Origin: a bacterium
GTDB lineage: Bacteria > Caldisericota > Caldisericia > UBA6126
Length of the DNA stretch: 36,191 nt
Direction of reading: 5' to 3'
Assembly: GCA_021372585.1 (NCBI GenBank)
Contig: JAJFUD010000088.1
Coordinates: 1 to 36,191 of the forward strand
Numbering within the stretch: the stretch's first letter is position 1; every line of letters begins with the position of its first letter. Below the pieces are notes generated by a model, which was not told the DNA's origin, ran no database searches, and saw nothing but the letters and a program-made list of their open reading frames with translations. Shown piece by piece: positions 1,028 to 12,983 of the stretch. A program made the translations under genes and the position numbers.

Positions 1028-1277
1028 ATGAATATCGGAGACCAACTGACCAAATCGATAAAGAAAGGACTAAAAAACAGGGCACGATCGAGGAAGAGGA
1101 GTTCTGTAATGCCGATAACGGTTTTAGGAGGGCAACATGAAAAGGAAGATTCTGACAAGTGAGCGTGTACACATTTTTTTGTGCTTCCTTATTTCATCAA
1201 GGGTATTTGATCCTGATGGTTTGGGTTTTGGTCTCATACTCAATGGTTGCGTCAAGGTTTTCTATCATAAAGCGTAG
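1028..1277 (+). pseudogene. possible remnant of a two-ORF junction
   Basis: ORF 1028-1162 (44 codons, very basic) reads through a purine-rich, coding-like stretch. A second ATG at 1137 has a strong TAGGAGGG ribosome-binding site and begins M-K-R-K-I-L-T-S-E-R-V. That ORF overlaps the first by 26 bp, as adjacent operon genes often do. It reads only about 10-20 plausible codons before crossing antisense into the 3' end of the gene ending at 1197, and stops at 1277. I read this as the end of one lost gene and the beginning of another, cut by a rearrangement. Neither fragment is recognisable. Confidence 0.35.
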
Positions 1278-3881
1278 GGGTAAAAAGGTTCGACCATCCT
1301 GGATAAAAGCGGGAGTATCTAACTTAATCCAGTCATTATCGATACGTGCTATAGGCTTGTCTATATAAAACTCAATCCTTTTATAACCGGTATCCAGTAA
1401 AACGATTTTGGCTTTTTCATCGTAGATTACCTTTATCCGATTATTAAAAACAACTTCAGCGATCAATCGAATACCTACAAACGTCAGACCATTTTTGCGG
1501 ATTGGGATGGATGCTTTTTCAATGGTAATCACTTCATCATTTAATTTTGCTTGATCAGATCCAATCTTAATTTCTAACGTATTTCCAATCGCATGGACAT
1601 TCACTTGAATTTCCTGGTTTAAATCCGGATATTCGGGAAAGGTAAAGTGAAGATAAGCGGTATTCATTTGCCAAGCTTTCAAACGGTTTGCTTTTATTGT
1701 AAAAGAAATCTTTTTATCGGATAACTTCCCGGTTTTTGTATCACATCGTAAAAAATTCTCAGTTCTAAGTTCAAAAGATAAATCTTTTGGATAAGTAGTA
1801 TGGAAGTTTACTTCAAAAACCTGGTCCTTAAATATGGAACACTGATCTATTTTGATGGTTTCAGACTCCCATATGATTTCTGGCAACGGATCAGGTTTGA
1901 ATGAGTCTCGGATAGGAATGATATGGTAACGGCAATTGAATAAATCCGATACATAAATATGATTATTTTTGATTTTTGCCCGAATAGGAACATAAAATTG
2001 GTTTGGTTTCTCTGAATAATCTTCTTTAGTCCGACAAAATACCACTTCTCCTTTTTCGCCAATCTTTTCAATCACTTCTCCCGTTCTATTGATATGCCAT
2101 AAACAGCACTGAATCGTATCAGTCAGGAGAAATGTTCCATCTGGATATAGGGAAAGGGAGGAATAAAAACTGCTTTCGCTCTTTGGTAGTATTATTTTCT
2201 CAAGAAAATCGTTTGTTTCCCTTGAATAAACTAATATTTCCTGATTCACAGCATCCAAAAAGAAGTATTCTTCGCTTGTTAAACCAAATCCAATATAGAA
2301 GGGGGTATGATTTGAGTCAATTTCCGGAGAGTTCTTAAAAGAAATAGTATACAAATGTTGTCTGTCCTCTGGATGAATTTCAAAGCTCATAAGATTGGGA
2401 GAGTTGGCTATATTCTGGGCACTATCTAAAACATAGACTTTTTCTTTATCAACAAGTAGATTTGCGAAATTACGTTCATGTATCGTCGATTTATACTGGT
2501 CTATATCAATCAATTCATAGAAACCAGACTCCCCAATTTTTTGGATATGAATATAACCGCTGTCAAATTCGGTGCATATTAAATTTTGATTTTCATCGAT
2601 CTCCATGTCACGCATAGAAAGCCCAATGTTAGAGTAACTATTATAATGCTTTCCAAACTGATTAAACTGATTAATTATCTCATGACCTTCTAACGTTGTC
2701 TGAATCAATGCTCCGTCATTGTTTATCCCGAAAGCAATGGAATTGAAAACTTGCCCTCTTTCTAGGCTGGATCTACCAATATTTACGATTTGATTACCTT
2801 GATAACAGAGAATTTGATATCCCAAACCAACACCAATATCTTTGTGAAGACCGATCATGAGATCCTGGTTAAAGACAAAATCCAGCCAAGGTTCATTATA
2901 ATTCCCTACACTCTTTTTAGATTCATTTACAATATAGATTTCATCTCCAATTTTTCCATACCGCAGGATGACAATAGAATAATCCCACATTTCCGTATCC
3001 AGATTGTATTCAAAACAATCTGTCAACAAGTAATTTGGTGCCTTGAAGGAGAGAATTCTTCCACTTAAACTACTTCTCAGACGTGATAAATCGATTCGAT
3101 TGATCATGGATATCCTGTTGCCGGCTTGGTCAAAAAAATAGAGCTCAATTAAGTCATCCCATTCCTCCTGTTTATTGGTTAAGACAATCATATCAAGGTC
3201 GGGAAGAACAGCAAACTCGTCTGTTTGGAGTGATACTGCTCCTGATTGTAGCATGACTTCAGATAGAATTTTGCCTGTAAGATCCATCTTGATCAACGTA
3301 TACTTGGAGCCTAAGTCAGAGTCAGCATCAGCAATTTCAGTTTTAACCAGGAATAGTATATCTTGTGCAATTTGAAACGAATAAGAATCACCACCCGATA
3401 CAAGTATGGTTCGGACTACTTTTTCAGAGATAGGGTCTACTACATAAATTTTGTTCTTAGATTGGGTATAGTGAAGTTGGATATAAAGAAGTCCTTTGGA
3501 ATCTGATTCCATGCTTGTATGAAGCCCACCCCATGACATAAAATCAGAATTTCTCGGTATTCCTTGTAGGCATTGTGCAGTAAAATCATCAACTGAGGTG
3601 CTTTTGAAAACATCTAACCAGGAAATTTCATCTAATAGTAAAATATCTATCGGAAATCTCCTGATAAAGTTTTTATTGCTAAGGTGGAAGACTGAAATTC
3701 CGAATTGATCCAGAACATACAATTGGTTATTATATATTTCCAATCCATAGGGAGCATACAAATAACCTGGCAATGGCCCATATCCTGCAATCACATGATT
3801 AGCTGGAGCTTCAGTTGAAGTAGTATTTGCTGGTAACGCAAAACATATCATTATCAAAAACAATAGTAGTGTTTTTTTCAT
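1197..3881 (-). CDS. secreted beta-propeller-like protein with C-terminal stalk domain
   Basis: This 894-residue protein begins with a clear signal peptide (M-K-K-T-L-L-L-F-L-I-M-I-C-F-A-L-P-A). A long region of repeated short beta motifs follows (for example L-E-I-Y-N-N-Q-L-Y-V-L-D-Q-F-G-I), resembling NHL or similar propeller blades from about residue 35 to 640. The last 130 residues form a stalk (copper amine oxidase N-terminal-like) domain with the hallmark D-G-R-T-F-L-P-L-R-F-M-I-E. It is the second gene of a two-gene operon: its ATG overlaps the upstream TGA as ATGA (3878-3881), and its GGGAGGTG ribosome-binding site lies within the upstream gene's last codons. Its partner has the same architecture. 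The likely location is the cell surface or outside the cell. I cannot tell whether the propeller binds a ligand or is structural. No catalytic motif is visible. Confidence 0.75.
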   Translation of the reverse strand: MKKTLLLFLIMICFALPANTTSTEAPANHVIAGYGPLPGYLYAPYGLEIYNNQLYVLDQFGISVFHLSNKNFIRRFPIDILLLDEISWLDVFKSTSVDDFTAQCLQGIPRNSDFMSWGGLHTSMESDSKGLLYIQLHYTQSKNKIYVVDPISEKVVRTILVSGGDSYSFQIAQDILFLVKTEIADADSDLGSKYTLIKMDLTGKILSEVMLQSGAVSLQTDEFAVLPDLDMIVLTNKQEEWDDLIELYFFDQAGNRISMINRIDLSRLRSSLSGRILSFKAPNYLLTDCFEYNLDTEMWDYSIVILRYGKIGDEIYIVNESKKSVGNYNEPWLDFVFNQDLMIGLHKDIGVGLGYQILCYQGNQIVNIGRSSLERGQVFNSIAFGINNDGALIQTTLEGHEIINQFNQFGKHYNSYSNIGLSMRDMEIDENQNLICTEFDSGYIHIQKIGESGFYELIDIDQYKSTIHERNFANLLVDKEKVYVLDSAQNIANSPNLMSFEIHPEDRQHLYTISFKNSPEIDSNHTPFYIGFGLTSEEYFFLDAVNQEILVYSRETNDFLEKIILPKSESSFYSSLSLYPDGTFLLTDTIQCCLWHINRTGEVIEKIGEKGEVVFCRTKEDYSEKPNQFYVPIRAKIKNNHIYVSDLFNCRYHIIPIRDSFKPDPLPEIIWESETIKIDQCSIFKDQVFEVNFHTTYPKDLSFELRTENFLRCDTKTGKLSDKKISFTIKANRLKAWQMNTAYLHFTFPEYPDLNQEIQVNVHAIGNTLEIKIGSDQAKLNDEVITIEKASIPIRKNGLTFVGIRLIAEVVFNNRIKVIYDEKAKIVLLDTGYKRIEFYIDKPIARIDNDWIKLDTPAFIQDGRTFLPLRFMIENLDATIEYETKTQTIRIKYP

Positions 3882-6667
3882 TTTTCACCTCCCGGGTCCG
3901 GGATATTCCTTAAGATAATCGTAACCTTTTGGCTTTTACTTTCCCAATACACTTGTGCTCCAAATGTTTCGGACAGGAATCGAATCGGAACTAAAGTACG
4001 GTTATTCAACAGCAAAGGGGGTGCATCCAAAATCAATGTTTCTGCCTGAACCCTCTCTCCGGTTTTGATTCTTTTTTCAACCTTATCGGAAGTCAACCAC
4101 ATGTAGATCGTAATACGATCATAGACGATGGATATCTTTTGTTCTTGCTGGTTCCAGTCTACGTTTGCACCAAATGCTTCGGATATAAACCGAACAGGAA
4201 CCAAAGTACGTTTTTTTATTATCATTGGAGGGGCTTCTAATACTTTTTTTTGGCCATCCACTATCGCCTCCGGTTTATTAATCCAAAGCTCCAGGATGAT
4301 AGGATTATTTCTACTGATAACCAATTGTTTTTTGGTTTGTAAACCAATTCTATTGGTAGCGGTAATTTCTATAGTATTCGTAAGATGCTTTAAACTCAGC
4401 TGATAAACGTATCTTCTTTTATTCTCTCTGTCTTCTGATACCGAATTACCATCTATGGTCACCGATTGGATTCCTGTTTCTTTATCATACGCTTCTACGA
4501 TAATGATAACGCTGCTCACTTCCACTTCTGTATTATCCGCAGGAGAAACGATGGTAAGCTCCGGAGGGGTTTTATCAATCGGAAAATCACTTTTTGTGGT
4601 ATCGAATTTGGTAATAAATAAATCGTTTGCACCAACTCGCTTCTGGCTGTTATTTCTCTCCATCACTGGAAAATCATCACTCCAAGTATAACCCGTTACA
4701 TAAACATATCCCTCCGGATCAATACAAGAAGAAGAGGCAGCATCTTCAGAATTTCCTCCCAGATACGTAGAATAGATAAGGGTAGTGCCCAAATTATTGA
4801 GTTTGGTGATAAAAGCATCGTATGAATCTTGGTTGAATATCCGGTATGCACTACTCGTAACCGGGAAATCTGTACTGGTAGTGTATCCGGTGATGTAAGT
4901 GTTGCCATCTTTATCCACGGAGAATCCATTCGCTTTATCTTCTGAACTGCCACCCAGATAAGTTGAAAAGATTAAAGAAGAACTGGTTATATCCAGTTTA
5001 GCAATAAAACAATCCCCTCTTGTATTATTCGAACTGACGGCTATCTGAAAAGCACCTGGAGTAACAGGTAAATCATAACTATCGGTAATGCCACAGATAT
5101 ATACAATTCCCTTTGAATCCACTTCTATCCTATAACCTTTTTCATCTGAACTTCCCCCAAAATAAGAAGAATAGAGCAATTTGCTTCCGGTAGAATTCAC
5201 CTTCGATATAAAAGAATCGTCGCCATATCCTTGTAAGCTTTTTTGATAAGCATCTGATGAGACTGGGAAGTCAGGACTGTTGGTTTCACCGGTCACATAG
5301 GCATTGCCATCTTTATCCACTTCAATGTCATAAGATCTGTCTTCTTTTGATCCTCCTAAAAATGTAGAGTATCGTAGATGTTGACCGGTTGAGTCCACTT
5401 TGGATACAAAAATGGTTGTTTTTCCCTTGTTGGTTTTTTGATAAGCATCAGTGGAAACCGGGAAATCTTTGCTTGTGCAAATTCCAGTGATATAAACATT
5501 ACCATCATGATCAATAGCAATGGCTTGGGCATATTCATATTCACTGCCTCCCATAAAAGTGGAATAAACCAGGATAGATCCGTTTGCATCAAATTTGCTG
5601 ACAAAGCCATCCGATCCCCCTCCTTTGTGAGAAGTCTGATAAGCCTCTTTCGTAATGGGGAAATCGTAGCTTTGGGTTTCTCCCGTAATATATATACAGT
5701 TCTCCCGGTCCACTTGAATTCCGTTAATCATGTCATATTCAGATCCACCAAAATAAGTTGAGTAAACCAGAGCTTTACCTTCTGGATTCAGTTTTACAAT
5801 AAATCCATCTTCTTGATAATTAGCGCCTTTTTCTCCCTGATAGGGGTCAGGAGTGACCGGGAAATCATAACTTCTTGTAAAACCACACACGTAAATGTTC
5901 TTATCGAAATCTATCGAAATATCTGTTGGTTGGTCCTCATCAGAACCACCGATTAAAGTCGAGTATACCAGAGGATCAATTACGATTGTATGATCACGCC
6001 TTTCCGGGATACCATTAAAAGAAAGAATACTGTTATGGACAGTAAAATGAGATGGGATATTTTGCTTGGTCACAATATCATAAACTGTTAAATTCGTATC
6101 CATAACATCTCCATGGCTTGTTGCCATCTGGAGAGAGGTTTTATGCGATATCAATTCAGCACCATTTACTTTAATTTGTAAATCACTGATATTCGCTTCC
6201 GGGGCAATATAATATTCGTATTTCAAACCTTCTGGAGAGAAGAAATAAGCCAGGTCGATTCCGCTCCATAAATTGGAATAGTAAATCTTGGAAAAGTGAC
6301 TGCAATTGGAAGCCCATTTCTTTGAATTGTTACCGATGAAGTAATTACTGTAATGAGGTAAAATACCCTTACCGGAAACATTTGGTACAAGCGGATGAAC
6401 AAATGATAGGGTTATTGAATTATAGGAAATGGAATCCTTGGTAAAAACGATTTTTCCGAAACTGGTTTCCCCGGCAAAAAGGATGGGTGGATCCCATTGA
6501 CCCTTATTTTCTGTAAAGAAATGAGACTGGTTCAAAATGATCTTGGCGTTTTCCCGGGACAACGTTAACATGCTTTGATTAGTCGTAAATGACAAAGATT
6601 GGCTTTGATGAGAGAGTAGAATTAGATGTAACACCATCATAACAATCAACAATTTTCTGACAAACAT
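3878..6667 (-). CDS. secreted SBBP seven-bladed propeller protein with stalk domain
   Basis: This 929-residue protein has a signal peptide (residues 1-26). A region typical of SBBP-repeat proteins follows (F-F-T-E-N-K-G-Q-W-D-P, from about residue 50). Seven tandem SBBP repeats of about 65 residues run from about 233 to 690, each carrying L-(V/I)-Y-S-T-(Y/F)-x-G-G-S and a following D-F-P-V motif. Seven copies would close one complete propeller. Next come an Ig-like segment (about 700-790) and a stalk domain (about 795-925) with two R-T-L-V-P-(V/I)-R-F motifs. Its start is supported by a GGAGGT ribosome-binding site. It is the first gene of the operon with the downstream stalk protein. A surface adhesion or scaffold role is an inference from the domains. 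Confidence 0.85.
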   Translation of the reverse strand: MFVRKLLIVMMVLHLILLSHQSQSLSFTTNQSMLTLSRENAKIILNQSHFFTENKGQWDPPILFAGETSFGKIVFTKDSISYNSITLSFVHPLVPNVSGKGILPHYSNYFIGNNSKKWASNCSHFSKIYYSNLWSGIDLAYFFSPEGLKYEYYIAPEANISDLQIKVNGAELISHKTSLQMATSHGDVMDTNLTVYDIVTKQNIPSHFTVHNSILSFNGIPERRDHTIVIDPLVYSTLIGGSDEDQPTDISIDFDKNIYVCGFTRSYDFPVTPDPYQGEKGANYQEDGFIVKLNPEGKALVYSTYFGGSEYDMINGIQVDRENCIYITGETQSYDFPITKEAYQTSHKGGGSDGFVSKFDANGSILVYSTFMGGSEYEYAQAIAIDHDGNVYITGICTSKDFPVSTDAYQKTNKGKTTIFVSKVDSTGQHLRYSTFLGGSKEDRSYDIEVDKDGNAYVTGETNSPDFPVSSDAYQKSLQGYGDDSFISKVNSTGSKLLYSSYFGGSSDEKGYRIEVDSKGIVYICGITDSYDLPVTPGAFQIAVSSNNTRGDCFIAKLDITSSSLIFSTYLGGSSEDKANGFSVDKDGNTYITGYTTSTDFPVTSSAYRIFNQDSYDAFITKLNNLGTTLIYSTYLGGNSEDAASSSCIDPEGYVYVTGYTWSDDFPVMERNNSQKRVGANDLFITKFDTTKSDFPIDKTPPELTIVSPADNTEVEVSSVIIIVEAYDKETGIQSVTIDGNSVSEDRENKRRYVYQLSLKHLTNTIEITATNRIGLQTKKQLVISRNNPIILELWINKPEAIVDGQKKVLEAPPMIIKKRTLVPVRFISEAFGANVDWNQQEQKISIVYDRITIYMWLTSDKVEKRIKTGERVQAETLILDAPPLLLNNRTLVPIRFLSETFGAQVYWESKSQKVTIILRNIPDPGGEK

Positions 6668-6716
6668 GCTCTACCTCCAATAAAGGCAGTCTTTTTATTG
6701 ACTAACTCAATAAAAG

Positions 6717-6757
6717 ATAATAATTAATATTAAACCTGTATTCTGGTTAAAAACAAT
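6717..6757 (-). promoter_or_regulatory. probable promoter of the propeller/stalk operon
   Basis: Read on the minus strand, the segment has TTTTTAACCAG, then ACAGG, then TATTAT at 6722-6717. The TTAACCAG-to-hexamer distance (28 bp) equals that in the two potassium-module promoters. The other three TTTAC-type sites are missing. The leader to the ATG at 6667 would be about 43 nt. Confidence 0.4.
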
Positions 6758-6903
6758 TTTTAATGCTATTATCTTATTTTTGATGATATTTACCAAATAA
6801 CTTAATCCAATTCATAGTTTATAAACTTGTTACAATATGGTTTTTTAAAACGGTTTTGTAAATAAAAGCTCATTATTAAAAGAGGTTTCACCCTTATCCT
6901 ATA

Positions 6904-6971
6904 TTTTTACGCAATTTTTACGGATATACCCTTTTTTTTAACCAGTAATTTACATGACATAAGCATATAAT
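6904..6971 (+). promoter_or_regulatory. promoter with four-site operator for the trkH unit (element copy 1)
   Basis: TTTAC-type sites start at 6906 (TTTAC), 6917 (TTTAC), 6938 (TTAAC) and 6949 (TTTAC), and TATAAT starts at 6966. The pairs are 11 bp apart, one helical turn, as expected for tandem binding by OmpR/PhoB-family regulators. The last site lies where a -35 box would be, and no good -35 is present, which suggests activator-dependent transcription. The same offsets (0, 11, 32, 43, and -10 at 60) recur at 9227-9292. KdpE, encoded downstream, is the natural candidate regulator. Confidence 0.65.
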
Positions 6972-7047
6972 GCTTCGTTATGATATTGACAGACAGCGTA
7001 AATAGTATGAAAAGTAAGGTTATAAAACGGTTTAGAAGGGGTCAGAG

Positions 7048-7161
7048 ATGAAGCATTTCTTTCAAGTTACAGTATCCATTATGACCGAAATGGGTTTCTG
7101 GGTCATCTATCTGGCAATACTACTATGCCTGTTGTTTATTTTGAGGTTGTTATTGGTATGA
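7048..7161 (+). CDS. 37-residue membrane microprotein preceding TrkH (KdpF-like position)
   Basis: This small ORF encodes a short amphipathic start (M-K-H-F-F-Q-V-T-V-S-I-M-T-E-M-G) followed by one hydrophobic helix (about residues 17-37: F-W-V-I-Y-L-A-I-L-L-C-L-L-F-I-L-R-L-L-L-V). An AAGGGG ribosome-binding site sits 6 nt before the ATG, and the promoter -10 lies about 75 bp upstream. Its TGA overlaps the most plausible trkH ATG as ATGA (7158-7161), so the two are probably translationally coupled. KdpF, a roughly 30-residue single-helix peptide, stabilises the KdpFABC K+ pump. By position and form this peptide could do the same for TrkH, but no sequence homology is claimed. It is too short for most gene finders. 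Confidence 0.6.
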   Translation: MKHFFQVTVSIMTEMGFWVIYLAILLCLLFILRLLLV

Positions 7162-8666
7162 TTCCAGAAATTCGATCTGAGGACTGGTCGACAATATTTC
7201 ATTTTTCCGGATCAGTCTTTAGTTTTTTAGGCGCAACGCTTCTTATTCCTTTAATGGTAGCTCTATTTGCTTCAGAATGGCGCAGTGCTGTGAATTTTTT
7301 CTTTACCTTTGCTCTGTTGCTTTCATTGGGGACTTTTTTATACACTCGCTTCCGTCCAATAAGAGAGGCAAATTGGCTACATGGCATGTGTATTAGCGCT
7401 TTTTCCTGGATTGTCTCGATGTTTATTCTTGCATTACCTTATTATTTTAGTCAGCACTTTCTTTCGTATACCGATGCCTGCTTTGATGTGATGAGCGGTA
7501 TGACGACGACAGGTTTGGTTTTGATTCAGGACATAGACCACTTGCCTATCTCTTTGAATATCTGGAGACATATGCTCACCTTTATCGGGGGGCAGGGAAT
7601 CATCATCATCGCAGTCGCTTTCATTCCGTCTATCGGTTTGAATTTCAAAGCGATGGTGGGGGAAGGGAAAGAGGAGAGATTGTTGCCGAATGTAAAACAG
7701 ACCGGACGCTATATTTGGATAATCAGCCTGCTGTATTTAGTGGTTGGAACGGTGATTCTATTTATCATCGGATTAATAATCGGATTTACCCCCGGTTGGT
7801 CTTTATTTCATGCTGTTTCCATGTTTATGTCTACCTGGAGTACGGGTGGGTTTGCTCCACAATCATTGAATGCACTGTATTATCATAACCTTCCTTATGA
7901 AATTGCAATGACGATCTTTTCAATCGTGGGATCCATGAATTTTGGTTTGCATTATTATGTCTGGTACAAGAAACGCAAGGCGTTGATTGAAGACATTGAA
8001 ACCAAGTCCTTTCTGATAACTCTTACTGTGCTGTTTTTAGTGATGGCAACCTACTTAATGCGGCAGGGAATCTATCCTAACCTGATAGCCTTGTTCCGAA
8101 AACTTGTGTTTAATCTCATTTCAGGCCATACAACCACCGGTACGCAGACTATATATTCAGTTCAGTTTATCAATTTGTGGTCCCCGATGGTTTTAATCGG
8201 CATCATTATCGCGATGGCAATCGGTGGGTCCAGCGCTTCCACTGCGGGTGGTTTTAAAGGCATCAGAATGGGTATACTTTTCCATTCGATCGTTCAGGAT
8301 ATCAAACAGTATTTTATGCCTTCGACAAGTGTCAACGTCCCTTTCTTTCAACATATCGGTAAGCAGATTTTATCTGATAAGATCATTAAATCCGCCATGA
8401 CGGTTGTGTTGTTTTATATCTTTTTCTACACTTTTGGTGCCGTACTTGGTGTTGCTTATGGTTATCCAGTCAACCAAGCGATTTTTGATTCGGTGTCTGC
8501 CGGATCGAACACAGGTTTAAGTGCAGGTTTGGTAAGTGTGTCGATGCCTTTTGTCATGAAAGTGTATTATATTCTCTCTATGTTCTTAGGCAGAGTTGAA
8601 TTCTTTTCTGGTTTAGTGTTGATGACATTTATTTATCGGTATGTATTACAGTTGGTGAAAAGATGA
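7158..8666 (+). CDS. trkH: TrkH/KtrB-family potassium uptake channel subunit
   Basis: This 502-residue polytopic membrane protein has the four pore-loop repeats of the TrkH/KtrB superfamily. Selectivity-filter glycines occur in M-T-T-T-G-L (about residue 114), S-T-G-G-F (about 227), H-T-T-T-G-T (about 323) and S-N-T-G-L-S (about 450). The subunit carries K+ (or Na+-coupled K+) uptake, normally gated by a cytoplasmic RCK protein (TrkA/KtrA) that is not encoded in this window. I place the start at ATG 7158 because it overlaps the stop of the upstream microprotein. A longer in-frame start at 7125 lies within that microprotein and lacks its own ribosome-binding site. It overlaps the next gene as ATGA (8663-8666). 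The linked kdpDE genes support a role in regulated K+ uptake. Confidence 0.92.
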   Translation: MIPEIRSEDWSTIFHFSGSVFSFLGATLLIPLMVALFASEWRSAVNFFFTFALLLSLGTFLYTRFRPIREANWLHGMCISAFSWIVSMFILALPYYFSQHFLSYTDACFDVMSGMTTTGLVLIQDIDHLPISLNIWRHMLTFIGGQGIIIIAVAFIPSIGLNFKAMVGEGKEERLLPNVKQTGRYIWIISLLYLVVGTVILFIIGLIIGFTPGWSLFHAVSMFMSTWSTGGFAPQSLNALYYHNLPYEIAMTIFSIVGSMNFGLHYYVWYKKRKALIEDIETKSFLITLTVLFLVMATYLMRQGIYPNLIALFRKLVFNLISGHTTTGTQTIYSVQFINLWSPMVLIGIIIAMAIGGSSASTAGGFKGIRMGILFHSIVQDIKQYFMPSTSVNVPFFQHIGKQILSDKIIKSAMTVVLFYIFFYTFGAVLGVAYGYPVNQAIFDSVSAGSNTGLSAGLVSVSMPFVMKVYYILSMFLGRVEFFSGLVLMTFIYRYVLQLVKR

Positions 8667-9205
8667 AAGCCTCTATTCTCTTTTTCTGTCTTATCTTTGT
8701 TTTTGTATTGACACTGAAACCTGTATTTTCAACCACTGAATCCCAGATTAATCCAAACAAGAAGCCTCTTGTCATCAGCGAATTGTTACAAAACCATTCT
8801 TATTGGGATCAACGAGTGATTAGTCTTACCGGAGAAGTGATCGGTCAACCGCTCTTTGCGCAGGATCTGGCTTGTATCCATCTTCTGGATCAAGAGGGCA
8901 ACGCTATCGGTGTTTGGATGGAAAAAGTGTATTTATCCCAAATTAGCTATTATGGTAGGTATCGGATAAAAGGTGATATGGTGAATGTAGAGGGTACTTT
9001 TAACCTGATTTGTTCTTCTCATTCGGGGGATACGGATATACATGCGAGCAAAATCACTATTATTCAGCAAGGGAAGGTAGTTTCATCGGATAAACCGGTC
9101 TGGAGCCTTTTCATAATTGGATGGATTTTGTTACTCTATCCGGGAGCATTAGTTTTGTCTAATCAGATTAAGAAAAATAAACTGCGTAAGCAATCAAGCA
9201 AATAA
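8663..9205 (+). CDS. membrane-anchored extracytoplasmic OB-fold-like protein coupled to TrkH
   Basis: This 180-residue protein has an N-terminal signal or anchor helix (about residues 4-23) and a C-terminal transmembrane helix (about 146-166) followed by a basic tail. The middle (about 50-135) reads like an OB-fold of the tRNA_anti-like type: V-I-S-L-T-G-E-V-I-G, then H-L-L-D-Q-E-G-N-A-I-G-V-W, then Y-R-I-K-G-D-M-V-N-V-E-G-T-F. That places the OB domain outside the cytoplasmic membrane. The start overlaps trkH by 4 bp, so its dose is tied to the channel. The function is unknown. It could be an accessory subunit or an envelope sensor. The gene is followed by a second regulated promoter. Confidence 0.6.
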   Translation: MKASILFFCLIFVFVLTLKPVFSTTESQINPNKKPLVISELLQNHSYWDQRVISLTGEVIGQPLFAQDLACIHLLDQEGNAIGVWMEKVYLSQISYYGRYRIKGDMVNVEGTFNLICSSHSGDTDIHASKITIIQQGKVVSSDKPVWSLFIIGWILLLYPGALVLSNQIKKNKLRKQSSK

Positions 9206-9330: not shown

Positions 9331-9564
9331 ATGAGACAAGAGGCGGCTGGTAAGATTTTAACAAAAAGGTGTCAGTATTGTGATGAGTGGTTGGAGGAGG
9401 ATGCTCCTTATTGTCTTAATTGCGGACGGTCCTTTTTGATTGATTCAAGCAATCCTTATCTGGATTTTTTGCATTTTCTATTTTATCTCTCGCTATTTCT
9501 GCTTCTGTTGATTCTTCTCTTTGTTTGGCTGAAACAATGCCCTGATTCACATTTTATGAGATAA
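9331..9564 (+). CDS. zinc-ribbon single-pass membrane peptide
   Basis: This 77-residue protein has a two-knuckle zinc ribbon at residues 14-33 (C-Q-Y-C and C-L-N-C-G-R), like the zinc-ribbon domain often seen at the N-terminus of bacterial membrane or regulatory proteins. A strongly hydrophobic helix follows (about residues 47-68). A GAGAAGGA ribosome-binding site precedes the ATG. It lies between the regulated promoter and kdpD, so it may be expressed under K+ control. The cytoplasmic ribbon could mediate protein contacts near the sensor or channel, but that is inference. Confidence 0.6.
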   Translation: MRQEAAGKILTKRCQYCDEWLEEDAPYCLNCGRSFLIDSSNPYLDFLHFLFYLSLFLLLLILLFVWLKQCPDSHFMR

Positions 9565-9581
9565 AAATCCATCTATTCCAA

Positions 9582-9611
9582 TTGTTGTTGAGTCATTATT
9601 TGATTTATAAT
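9582..9611 (+). promoter_or_regulatory. possible internal kdpDE promoter
   Basis: TTGTTG (9582-9587) and TATAAT (9606-9611) are separated by 18 bp, 40 bp before the proposed kdpD TTG start. This would give basal kdpDE expression independent of the regulated promoter at 9225-9292. Confidence 0.4.
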
Positions 9612-9650
9612 AGCCATAACATTTGTATATTGTCTAATAAAGGGGATAGG

Positions 9651-12290
9651 TTGAACGATATCACGGAAAAACCGGAAGACTTTTTAAATGAGCCAAAAGG
9701 CATACTAACCATTTTTATTGGTGCTACCGCTGGTGTTGGTAAAACTTTTGCTATGTTGGAAACAGCCCAGGAAAAATTATCCGAAAACAAAGAAGTCGTG
9801 ATTGGCTGGTTGGATAGCCATGGCAGAAAAGAGATCGAATCGGTTGCAGAAGGCATTCCAGTGATTGAGCCAATGAGCATAAAATATCTTGAGAATGAAT
9901 ACAAAACGCTTGATTTGGATAGAATTCTGAAGGAAAAACCGGACATTGTTGTGATTGATGAGTTGGCTTATTCCAATATTCCAGGTTTGAGAAATAAAAA
10001 AAGGTATCAAGATGTAGAGGAATGTTTAAAGCATGGGATAGATGTGTATACTACCTTGAATATTCATCAATTGGAAAGCTTGAATGATATAGTCACTGAA
10101 ATTACTGAAACCCAGGTTCAAGAAACAGTACCTGATCATTTCTTGAATGATGCGCAGATCCAACTGGTGGATATCGATCCGGACACATTGATTCAGAGAC
10201 TCCATGATGGGAAAGTTTTTACGCCTGATTTATCACAAGAAACCATACGCCATATTTTCCGACCGGGAAATATTAATGCACTTCGGGAAATAACCCTTCG
10301 ATATGCAGCTAAACAAGTCGACAAAGAGATGAGTTCATATAGAAATACCCATTCGATCGAGGAAACCTGGAGAACTGGCGAAAAGGTACTCGTTTATATT
10401 GATTCTTATGCTTACTCGATTCATTTATTACGAACTGCAAAAAACTTGGCAGACAGCTTAAAAGGAGACTTAATCGTCGCTTTACGTCAACCTCCTTCCT
10501 ATATTCTCAGTGAAAAAATGAAAACAGTCATCTCGAAAGCGAATCAGGTCGCTGAAGAATTGGGAGCTGAGATTATCACAGTTTCTTCCGATAAAATTCT
10601 GGATTCATTGGTTCAAATCATCAAAAGAAAGAACATTACCCAATTGGTGATCGGAAAATATCGTAACCGATTCAGATGGTTATCTTTTTTTAAAGAGCCT
10701 TTTGAAAACTCATTAATTAATAATTTAAACAGCACAAGAGTCCATTTAATTCCGTTTAAAAAAGAAGAGAGCGAACAATCGTTCTTTCATTTTAGATTCA
10801 TCAATTCGATTCATCTGATCCCATTGTTGTCTCATATTCTATTAGTGGTTATCCTGACCATCATCTGCAAAATCTTTGTTGAAGACCTTGGATTAATAAA
10901 TATATCTACCTTATTTGTCATCCCGTTGCTCCTGTCTTCTTTATGGGGGTATCAGAATTCGATTATTGTCACAGTTGTTAGTATTCTGTTATACGATTTT
11001 TTCTTTATTGCTCCGCATAACACCTTTATTATTAGTGATTCCCGGTATTTAATTAGTTTGTTTATATTTCTGTTTATCGCCTTTATATCAGGCTACATTT
11101 CTATTCTTTTCCAAAAAAAGGCTGATTTAGTGGAAGAGAACCACTTCCAGATCAATTCCCTGTTTTCTTTAAGCAAAGACATTGCGTTGGATAACAATAT
11201 TGATTCGGTCTTAAAAAAGATTATTTTTGAGATAGCTGAATTCACGGAAGCAAAGGTGGCGATATTGTTACCAGATGCAACTAACCATCTCATCATTCAG
11301 GGATCAAATGATGAAAAGCTTCGTCTTGAAATAGAAAAAAAAGAAATAGCTGTAGCCACGTGGACTTATCAAAACAAGCAAATGGCAGGAAAGGGAACCA
11401 ATACTCTTGGCAACTCATCCAATTTATTTTTCCCCATTATATCTACTGATAATATTTTTGGCGTATTTGCTATCAGCGTTTCATGGGATACTTTTAAAAA
11501 AGACCCTATAATGAAACGATACCTGGAAGCGATTTCGCATCTGACAGCTATTGCTATTCACCGACATCAACTCACAGAAAAAGAAAGCGAGAGCATAGCA
11601 ATGGTCGAATCACAAAAATTGCAGAAAGCTTTGTTTGATTCGATATCCCATGATCTGAACACACCTCTCACCTCGATAATTGGCGCCTCCGGCAGCTTGT
11701 TGGATGAGGGCGATCTTTACTCGAAAAAGGACAGAAAAGAGCTTTTGTTATCCATACAACAAGATGCGAACGACATGCACCGATTGGTTCAAAATTTATT
11801 GGATATGGCACATCTGGATAACCGCGTCATTCAGATAAAAAAAGAGTATGCCGATATGGCCGACATTGTGGATTTCTGTATTAGAAAGATGAAGCATCTC
11901 GGTAGGCGACAGATTGTTCGGTTGATAGATGATACTTTGCCCTCTATTCAGGTAGATACAGCTTTGATAGAACAAGTGATCACCAACCTGTTGGATAATG
12001 CTATCAAATATTCTCCTGAAGATTCCAGGATTGTGATTAAAGCCTATCTAGAGCATGATAGATTATTCTTTTCCATGGAAGATGAGGGAATTGGGATTCC
12101 TCCTGAAGATGTCGATTTAGTTTTTACAAAATTCTATCGATCGAATCAGGCAAAAACCAAAAGAGGCTCCGGTTTAGGACTTTCCATATGCAAAGGGATC
12201 GTGGAAGCCCATGGTGGCAAGATTTGGGTGATTAGGGGACGCTCAAAAGGAACTTGTATAGTCTTCTACATCCCTTATAACAGAAGGTGA
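9651..12290 (+). CDS. kdpD: KdpD-type osmosensitive K+ sensor histidine kinase
   Basis: This protein has 879 residues from a TTG start, close to the family's roughly 890. Domain order: N-terminal KdpD domain with the Walker-like G-A-T-A-G-V-G-K-T (residues 24-32) and V-V-I-D-E-L-A-Y; a universal-stress-like domain (about 255-385); four transmembrane helices of the DUF4118 type (about 405-510); a GAF-like domain (about 530-650); HisKA with phospho-acceptor His667 in S-I-S-H-D-L-N-T-P-L-T; and HATPase with N-L-L-D-N-A-I-K-Y-S and G-S-G-L-G-L-S. I prefer TTG 9651 over an upstream in-frame TTG (9582) because AAGGGGA lies just before it and the residues after it fit the family N-terminus. It phosphorylates KdpE under K+ limitation or osmotic upshift. 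It is followed 9 bp later by kdpE. Confidence 0.93.
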   Translation: MNDITEKPEDFLNEPKGILTIFIGATAGVGKTFAMLETAQEKLSENKEVVIGWLDSHGRKEIESVAEGIPVIEPMSIKYLENEYKTLDLDRILKEKPDIVVIDELAYSNIPGLRNKKRYQDVEECLKHGIDVYTTLNIHQLESLNDIVTEITETQVQETVPDHFLNDAQIQLVDIDPDTLIQRLHDGKVFTPDLSQETIRHIFRPGNINALREITLRYAAKQVDKEMSSYRNTHSIEETWRTGEKVLVYIDSYAYSIHLLRTAKNLADSLKGDLIVALRQPPSYILSEKMKTVISKANQVAEELGAEIITVSSDKILDSLVQIIKRKNITQLVIGKYRNRFRWLSFFKEPFENSLINNLNSTRVHLIPFKKEESEQSFFHFRFINSIHLIPLLSHILLVVILTIICKIFVEDLGLINISTLFVIPLLLSSLWGYQNSIIVTVVSILLYDFFFIAPHNTFIISDSRYLISLFIFLFIAFISGYISILFQKKADLVEENHFQINSLFSLSKDIALDNNIDSVLKKIIFEIAEFTEAKVAILLPDATNHLIIQGSNDEKLRLEIEKKEIAVATWTYQNKQMAGKGTNTLGNSSNLFFPIISTDNIFGVFAISVSWDTFKKDPIMKRYLEAISHLTAIAIHRHQLTEKESESIAMVESQKLQKALFDSISHDLNTPLTSIIGASGSLLDEGDLYSKKDRKELLLSIQQDANDMHRLVQNLLDMAHLDNRVIQIKKEYADMADIVDFCIRKMKHLGRRQIVRLIDDTLPSIQVDTALIEQVITNLLDNAIKYSPEDSRIVIKAYLEHDRLFFSMEDEGIGIPPEDVDLVFTKFYRSNQAKTKRGSGLGLSICKGIVEAHGGKIWVIRGRSKGTCIVFYIPYNRR

Positions 12291-12299
12291 GGAGGGTAG

Positions 12300-12983
12300 A
12301 TGGAAAATAAAAAGACGAGAATTCTGGTGATTGATGATGAGCCTCAAATTCGAAAACTACTCTCTATTGCATTAAATGCTCATGATTTTCACATAGAAAC
12401 AGCAGAGAACGGGATGCTGGGAATACAAGCTGTTGCCTGTTTTAAACCTGACCTGGTGTTGTTGGATTTGAGCTTACCGGATATAGATGGAGTCGATGTA
12501 ATAAAAAGAATTAGGGAGTGGTCTCAGGTTCCGATACTGATTTTATCCGTTCGCAGCAGCGATGAAGATAAAGTTGAAGCTTTAGATGCCGGTGCTGATG
12601 ATTATTTGATAAAACCATTTAGCATGAATGAACTTTTTGCCAGGATTCGTGCTGCCCTTCGACATATCGCTAAGACCTATGACGATTCAGTTCTGGAATG
12701 CAATGGTATCAAAATGGATTTCTTAAAAAGACAGGTTTTTGTTGAAAACCTTGAAGTAAAGCTGACTCCTACAGAATATGAAATTTTGAAAACCCTTTTG
12801 ATGAATTTTGAAAAGGTAGTCACACAGAAACAACTATTACAGACCGTATGGGGTTCTTCCTATCATCTGGAAACTCATTATCTGAGGATTTATCTACGAA
12901 AACTTCGTAAGAAGATTGAAGAGGATCCATCCAATCCAAAACATCTGATCACAGAATCCGGTATCGGTTATCGGTTGATTTAA
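12300..12983 (+). CDS. kdpE: KdpE-type OmpR-family response regulator
   Basis: This 227-residue protein has a receiver domain with Asp12/Asp13, phospho-acceptor Asp56 in L-L-D-L-S-L-P-D, and the conserved Lys in L-I-K-P-F. A C-terminal winged-helix (trans_reg_C) domain follows, with L-T-P-T-E-Y-E-I-L and the L-R-I-Y-L-R-K-L-R-K-K-I-E recognition region. It is the cognate regulator of the adjacent KdpD; GGAGGG precedes the ATG. OmpR-family regulators bind tandem direct repeats at about 11-bp period, matching the sites at 6906-6953 and 9227-9274. It is probably both the activator of the trkH unit and an autoregulator. A strong hairpin ends the unit at 13033-13071. Confidence 0.92.
   Translation: MENKKTRILVIDDEPQIRKLLSIALNAHDFHIETAENGMLGIQAVACFKPDLVLLDLSLPDIDGVDVIKRIREWSQVPILILSVRSSDEDKVEALDAGADDYLIKPFSMNELFARIRAALRHIAKTYDDSVLECNGIKMDFLKRQVFVENLEVKLTPTEYEILKTLLMNFEKVVTQKQLLQTVWGSSYHLETHYLRIYLRKLRKKIEEDPSNPKHLITESGIGYRLI

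Follow-up and report, generated by a model that had tools for sequence, protein, structure and literature searches.

A small membrane peptide encoded beside one subfamily of TrkH potassium channels

A 37-codon reading frame that ends on the start codon of a trkH gene in a Caldisericia bacterium encodes a real protein under selection, and its product belongs to a peptide family that marks one TrkH subfamily across several phyla. The frame lies in a 36,191-nt stretch of DNA (hereafter the window, meaning this whole stretch) from a genome assembly of 1.88 Mb in 104 contigs that is 97.7% complete. We regard it as rather likely that the product is a real single-pass inner-membrane protein, serving as a dedicated small subunit, or at least as a lasting accessory protein, of these TrkHs. 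The Trk and Ktr systems are known as two-part machines: TrkH or KtrB forms the membrane channel, and TrkA or KtrA the RCK ring that works with it. Structures of TrkH/TrkA have been solved.

The small reading frame (smORF) and the sites and genes that follow it in the window are listed below.

7036..7041, + strand: smORF ribosome-binding site AAGGGG, ending 6 nt short of the ATG (sequence)
7048..7161, + strand: smORF, single-pass membrane microprotein of 37 aa (ORF, purifying selection, conserved family)
7158..7161, + strand: ATGA overlap of the smORF stop with the trkH start (sequence)
7158..8666, + strand: trkH, 502 aa, smORF-linked TrkH subfamily (PF02386, alignment of relatives, structural match, tree)
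8663..9205, + strand: 180-aa extracytoplasmic OB-fold membrane protein (AlphaFold pLDDT 92.3; Foldseek OB-fold matches)
9331..9564, + strand: 77-aa protein with a zinc-ribbon-like start and a hydrophobic helix (ORF; Zn_ribbon Pfam matches weak, below cut-off)
9582..12290, + strand: kdpD-like K+ sensor kinase, start codon tentative (PF02702, 5.9e-78)
12300..12983, + strand: kdpE-like response regulator (NF007820, 6e-74, below the equivalog cut-off)

The smORF and trkH genes in the window

The smORF runs from an ATG at 7048 to a TGA at 7159-7161, and its 37-aa product is MKHFFQVTVSIMTEMGFWVIYLAILLCLLFILRLLLV. The earlier note had described here a short ORF with an AAGGGG site, one hydrophobic helix and a stop overlapping the trkH start, and all of these were seen at 7048-7161. 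Its statement that the peptide is "fused" to trkH was wrong: the overlap with the trkH ATG (7158-7160) comprises four bases and the two genes are read in different frames. Upstream of the smORF lies a long gene on the opposite (-) strand (3878-6667). It is one of two large minus-strand genes in the 1197-6667 region, the second with repeats like those of SBBP beta-propellers; both end in domains that may resemble the copper-amine-oxidase N-type. A promoter and terminator scan of 6650-7200 found promoter-like sites no more numerous than in shuffled sequences. An RNA element at the smORF was ruled out, with no Rfam match at the gathering threshold anywhere in the window.

The comparison of synonymous with non-synonymous change that the earlier note had proposed favours a coding gene. 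In the closest relative (G001, same genus) the smORF is intact and shows 10 synonymous and 2 non-synonymous differences, which gives a dN/dS of 0.04 and a binomial probability of 1e-5 for at least 10 of 12 changes being synonymous; the two other frames of the same pair give dN/dS values of 1.1 and 3.5. The second smORF copy in the window's own genome gives 0.21, of the same sign. Other groups likewise show purifying selection in the true frame and in no other: dN/dS is 0.27 in 11 Cryosericum-type loci and 0.12 in three f6 loci, and the pN/pS values are 0.25 (four close Omnitrophota), 0.45 (ten Omnitrophota), 0.35 (three Acidimicrobiia) and 0.62 (five far-apart Bacillota). The N-terminal tail of the Cryosericum-type peptides (codons -48 to -31) is under no clear constraint, with a ratio of 0.94, and the helix is the conserved part. 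We concluded that the smORF at 7048-7161 encodes a real protein under selection.

The trkH product falls within the TrkH family by PF02386 (6e-36; 124.4 bits against a cut-off of 27, scanned from 7125) and scores 208.1 bits with the narrower subfamily model TIGR00933, under its cut-off of 331.15. As the earlier note had proposed, the start of trkH is 7158 and not 7125. With the 7158 version, the alignment to the TrkH proteins of relatives begins at residue 1-2 and does not run through the 7125 start, and the orthologue in G001 lacks an in-frame start corresponding to 7125. In a structural alignment, residue 8 of the window TrkH model pairs with residue 2 of Vibrio TrkH (6v4k), so nothing in this match calls for the 11 residues that a start at 7125 would add. 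The AlphaFold model (mean pLDDT 82.8) matches 6v4k over 446 aligned residues (VIA Z 36.8, rmsd 2.7; model 8-496 with chain 2-483) and by this match has the whole TrkH fold, with the D0 helices at the N-terminus; most KtrB rows in the structural comparison begin only near model residue 65-75. The model also matches KdpA, with a Z of about 20. Since TrkH is complete from 7158 without the peptide, the peptide is an extra helix and no missing piece of the channel, and the idea that the smORF is a split-off TrkH helix was ruled out. The G001 trkH gene (L003, G001:C187) carries an in-frame TAG beside an intact smORF, and is either a pseudogene or an assembly error.

Distribution of the peptide and its TrkH subfamily

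The Caldisericia sample comprised 41 genomes, in which close relatives of the window TrkH were taken at E <= 1e-20. Some TrkH-family gene is present in 41/41 genomes and the subfamily TrkH in 23; the smORF profile A1 matches the same 23 at E <= 1e-6, with no discordant genome. The 18 others have no smORF at that threshold (best match E = 0.008) and are a fair control because they contain other TrkH/KtrB-family genes. As A1 was built from Caldisericia members, only the absence in these 18 genomes counts as independent. Wherever the start of a subfamily trkH is visible in the 23 genomes (25 of 25 loci) a smORF with the Glu precedes it, the smORFs having been chosen by eye from the ORF listing and not by a Glu rule. 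A1 gave one false positive in the window's own genome, a stretch in a larger multi-pass ORF (G000:C31, E = 1.4e-4), so weak matches inside long ORFs are no evidence. The same genome has a second smORF-trkH-OB set (L191, G000:C56:8000-22000) with a more distant TrkH, at which no adjacent trkA or kdpDE was seen.

For the distribution beyond the class, genome contigs were scanned with a TrkH alignment and the best 80 loci were taken (L032-L111). A peptide with the Glu is present in 67 of them: in 64 close upstream of trkH, and in L045, L079 and L038 as detected by profile. Three loci have a helix without Glu (L090, L103 and L105), two are cut by a contig end (L080 and L084), and in eight no peptide was seen (L088, L093, L097, L101, L102, L109, L110 and L111). 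The small ORF upstream of trkH is thus conserved in relatives, as the earlier note had asked to be checked, both in Caldisericia and in 67 of these 80 loci. Across loci the peptides at trkH are 32-60 aa long, with a single helix and a G-x-x-x-E motif. By record title the 80 loci come from Caldisericia/Cryosericum, Omnitrophota, Actinomycetota and Bacillota, and from one MAG each under the labels Treponema, Gammaproteobacteria and Acholeplasmataceae. Isolates occur among the Bacillota, and cultured carriers of the peptide are Anaerocolumna sedimenticola, Clostridium tagluense, [Clostridium] fimetarium and Anaerobium acetethylicum (loci L045, L046, L054 and L058). The Acholeplasmataceae-labelled MAG sits within the Bacillota branch of the TrkH tree and its label may therefore be wrong. 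A control pattern (Glu followed by a hydrophobic helix, a stop near the start codon, and G/A/S at E-4) was found at 55/78 trkH starts, compared with 3/547 other ORF starts and 2/3041 random positions in the same best 80 loci.

A second profile, A3, consists of 61 rows: the 64 close-upstream peptides and the window peptide, minus near copies (L064, L066, L098 and L107). Used alone on 117 Omnitrophota genomes, some of which may equal or be close to the sources of A3 rows, it gave 24 matches at E <= 1e-3, and every one of them (24/24) has its end between -31 and +9 nt relative to the start of a subfamily trkH. Just three clear matches were obtained in 148 Clostridia genomes, so the family is patchy in Clostridia; most matches there at E 0.01-0.1 look like stretches inside long ORFs. 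TrkH matches in a plasmid collection come from 193 records, each below 60% identity (about 28% for the 15 listed), and no subfamily member is evident among them.

In a tree of 110 TrkH proteins, from which the truncated loci L080 and L084 were left out, all 84 rows with a smORF and Glu fall in one clade of 94 (SH-aLRT 93). The other ten rows of this clade comprise five with a Glu-less helix and five without a peptide, and the classical TrkH rows are without a peptide in 16 of 16 cases. The peptide label changes 3 times on the tree, against 23.5 times when shuffled. Genomes with two TrkH genes have the peptide beside one and none beside the classical TrkH/KtrB paralogue. The subfamily also has diagnostic residues, for example N134, H138, Q146, Y242 and H324 in window TrkH numbering, from a comparison that left out 13 short TrkH fragments and duplicate loci. 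The peptide therefore marks one TrkH subfamily across several phyla. The earlier note had under-called the breadth, the family being cross-phylum and tied to a single TrkH subfamily. A Glu-less single-helix ORF occupies the same place in L090, L103, L105, L128 and L138 (Actinomycetota and others). No TrkH column changed together with Glu loss in all four Glu-less lineages; a few columns (152, 459 and 463) did so in three, and one Glu-less clade has a Glu at position 464 in 5/5 members, both patterns being confounded by shared descent.

Relation to KdpF and other small membrane proteins

KdpF is the nearest counterpart among known systems, being a single-pass peptide of about 30 aa whose gene lies directly before, and overlaps, the gene of an SKT-superfamily K+ protein. 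The size and single helix of the smORF product fit this description, and its partner TrkH shares the KdpA fold (Z 20). The kdpF/kdpA overlap in E. coli is one base, and the smORF/trkH overlap is four. The differences lie in sequence and in the partner. When the 61 members were scanned singly, none matched PF09604 or an NCBIfam KdpF model at E <= 1, while the positive control, E. coli KdpF, matched PF09604 at 1e-6; homology of the smORF product to KdpF was rejected for lack of a match. The new family is defined by a conserved Glu towards the N-end of the helix. Its partner, a TrkH channel, comes with no P-type ATPase, and the smORF lies beside trkH and not with kdpA, kdpB or kdpC. The peptide would be an analogue of the KdpF of the related KdpA, apparently of separate origin. 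What the earlier note had called a KdpF-like accessory peptide holds as an analogy in the kind of peptide, the gene position and the KdpA fold, and fails as an identification with KdpF by sequence. KdpF is suggested to be a structural chaperone that stabilises its complex (PMC12629597), transporter function is described as not requiring it, and it bound KdpD in a two-hybrid test with no clear regulatory effect (PMC3618439).

Searches of Pfam and NCBIfam with the peptide gave single-member matches only (best E 0.077 and 0.013, respectively), none of them convincing, and the PDB gave a best E of 1 with no family match. MgrB, SafA and oxidase subunit IIa are likewise small peptides of the membrane whose target is a large membrane protein (PMC3618439, PMC3128077), but no sequence relation to the smORF product was found in Pfam, NCBIfam or the PDB. 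With the classical TrkH-TrkA and KtrB-KtrA systems (Vibrio TrkHA, 6v4k and 3pjz; B. subtilis KtrAB) the window locus shares a full TrkH, with trkA as the usual neighbour in the family; it differs in that the classical loci examined are without a peptide, and the TrkHs linked to a smORF make up a clade apart, with diagnostic residues. In titles and abstract beginnings of open-licence PubMed Central papers, we found no paper on a small TrkH-linked peptide. A small membrane partner of an SKT K+ protein is a known kind of protein; this family and its partner are undescribed in the literature searched.

Gene neighbourhood and possible role of the peptide

The gene row in the window is smORF - trkH - 180-aa protein - 77-aa zinc-ribbon protein - kdpD - kdpE. 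The 180-aa protein, whose gene start overlaps the trkH end, again as ATGA (8663-8666), has a signal-like N-helix, an OB-fold and a C-terminal helix, with relatives that carry a C-x-EHGG-x-x-DIHA-type motif. It has no Pfam family, and homologues are encoded in 67 of the best 80 trkH loci. This OB-fold protein is a second uncharacterised partner of these TrkHs. KdpA is absent from the window's genome at its 97.7% completeness, so KdpDE stand in the trkH row without a Kdp pump and probably control the Trk system.

Across loci the usual order is trkA - trkA - smORF - trkH - OB-fold protein, and in L038 and L079 the peptide is encoded ahead of the OB gene instead of trkH but still follows trkA. On this evidence the true partner might be the TrkA ring, or the peptide might be a transient insertion or assembly factor, or a protease adaptor, for TrkH; operon linkage also suits a TrkA partner or a transient assembly factor. 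We consider such a role unlikely. Neither smORF-trkH copy in the window's genome adjoins trkA, the two trkA genes being on other contigs, and the occurrence of the peptide goes with that of the TrkH subfamily, whereas genes of TrkA_N type are found in 14/14 control genomes.

The kdpDE genes downstream raise the question of whether the peptide modulates the KdpD kinase, in the way of other small membrane modulators of kinases, or serves as its sensor, its adjacency to trkH being incidental. Among the best 80 loci, KdpD- or KdpE-like proteins are encoded within 3 kb of trkH in 12 and 14 matches, respectively, and the two-hybrid binding of KdpF to KdpD points the same way, without a clear regulatory effect. 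Most of the 80 loci have no KdpD match nearby, and only 7/23 smORF-bearing Caldisericia genomes have a KdpD over the cut-off. A modulator specific to KdpD is rejected by the other 16, and action on KdpD in general is very unlikely.

It is also highly improbable that translation of the smORF is all that matters, with ribosomes that finish at the ATGA restarting on trkH and the peptide itself inert. An ATGA or a spacing of a few nt is common in the family, and the ribosome-binding site that trkH itself has for its 7158 start is weak (GAGG, 14-17 nt upstream), as such a leader ORF would predict. Against it, the amino acids themselves are kept, as shown by dN/dS in the window pair (0.04) and by pN/pS in far-apart Bacillota (no higher than ~0.6), the Glu persists across phyla, and the peptide is retained where it is not next to trkH. 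Besides L038 and L079, where it precedes the OB gene, this is so in Anaerocolumna sedimenticola (L045, near 2752-2995), where ~240 nt separate the smORF from trkH and almost none do in relatives. These three layouts indicate that tight coupling of the peptide to trkH is not obligatory. Finally, A+T-rich DNA readily yields short hydrophobic ORFs, but the control counts (55/78 against 3/547 and 2/3041), the selection tests and the blind search (24/24) make a chance or mechanical ORF without a product a negligible prospect.

We thus return to the reading of a small subunit or lasting accessory protein of TrkH. The window smORF fits the family definition of a G-x-x-x-E motif and one hydrophobic helix beside the TrkH subfamily, and its profile match has E = 2e-6, the window being one of the 61 rows of that profile. 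At window position 10, A3 has Gly in 52 rows and Ser in 5, the window itself having Ser; position 14 (E14 in the window) is Glu in 61/61, partly by construction because the choice of rows required Glu; and positions 18, 25 and 29 are frequently small. The small residues and the Glu would fall on one helix face, judging from their spacing of near 4, 4, 7 and 4. The N flank carries more positive charge than the C flank in 44/64 peptides, equal charge in 16 and less in 4, which predicts an N-in orientation and places the Glu near the cytoplasmic edge.

From these features we infer a possible arrangement in which the short basic N-tail lies in the cytoplasm, one helix crosses the membrane and the C-end is outside. 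The helix face (G/S10, E14, A/V18, A/G25 and C/A/S/T29 in window numbering) would pack into a groove of TrkH, and the peptide may stabilise the channel or set the way it couples to the TrkA ring in the cytoplasm, in a role like the one that KdpF may have for its pump. The ten subfamily TrkH rows that do without the Glu form, five with the Glu-less helix and five with no peptide, weigh against this subunit reading, as does the patchy occurrence in Clostridia.

A bolder proposal, which we put forward tentatively and consider doubtful, is that the peptide is an unrecognised, widespread third subunit of the TrkH subfamily in three-part complexes, with its membrane Glu taking part in gating or ion coupling, and that small K+-channel subunits arose repeatedly. 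The Glu might then, for instance, form a switch between TrkH and the TrkA ring that works by protonation or through a salt bridge. A conserved transmembrane peptide specific to one subfamily suggests that a component of the channel machinery may have gone unnoticed because its gene is so short. It would add to KdpF a second case, apparently independent, in which a tiny peptide accompanies a K+ protein of the SKT fold, and the peptide with its single conserved Glu offers a directly testable handle on these channels.
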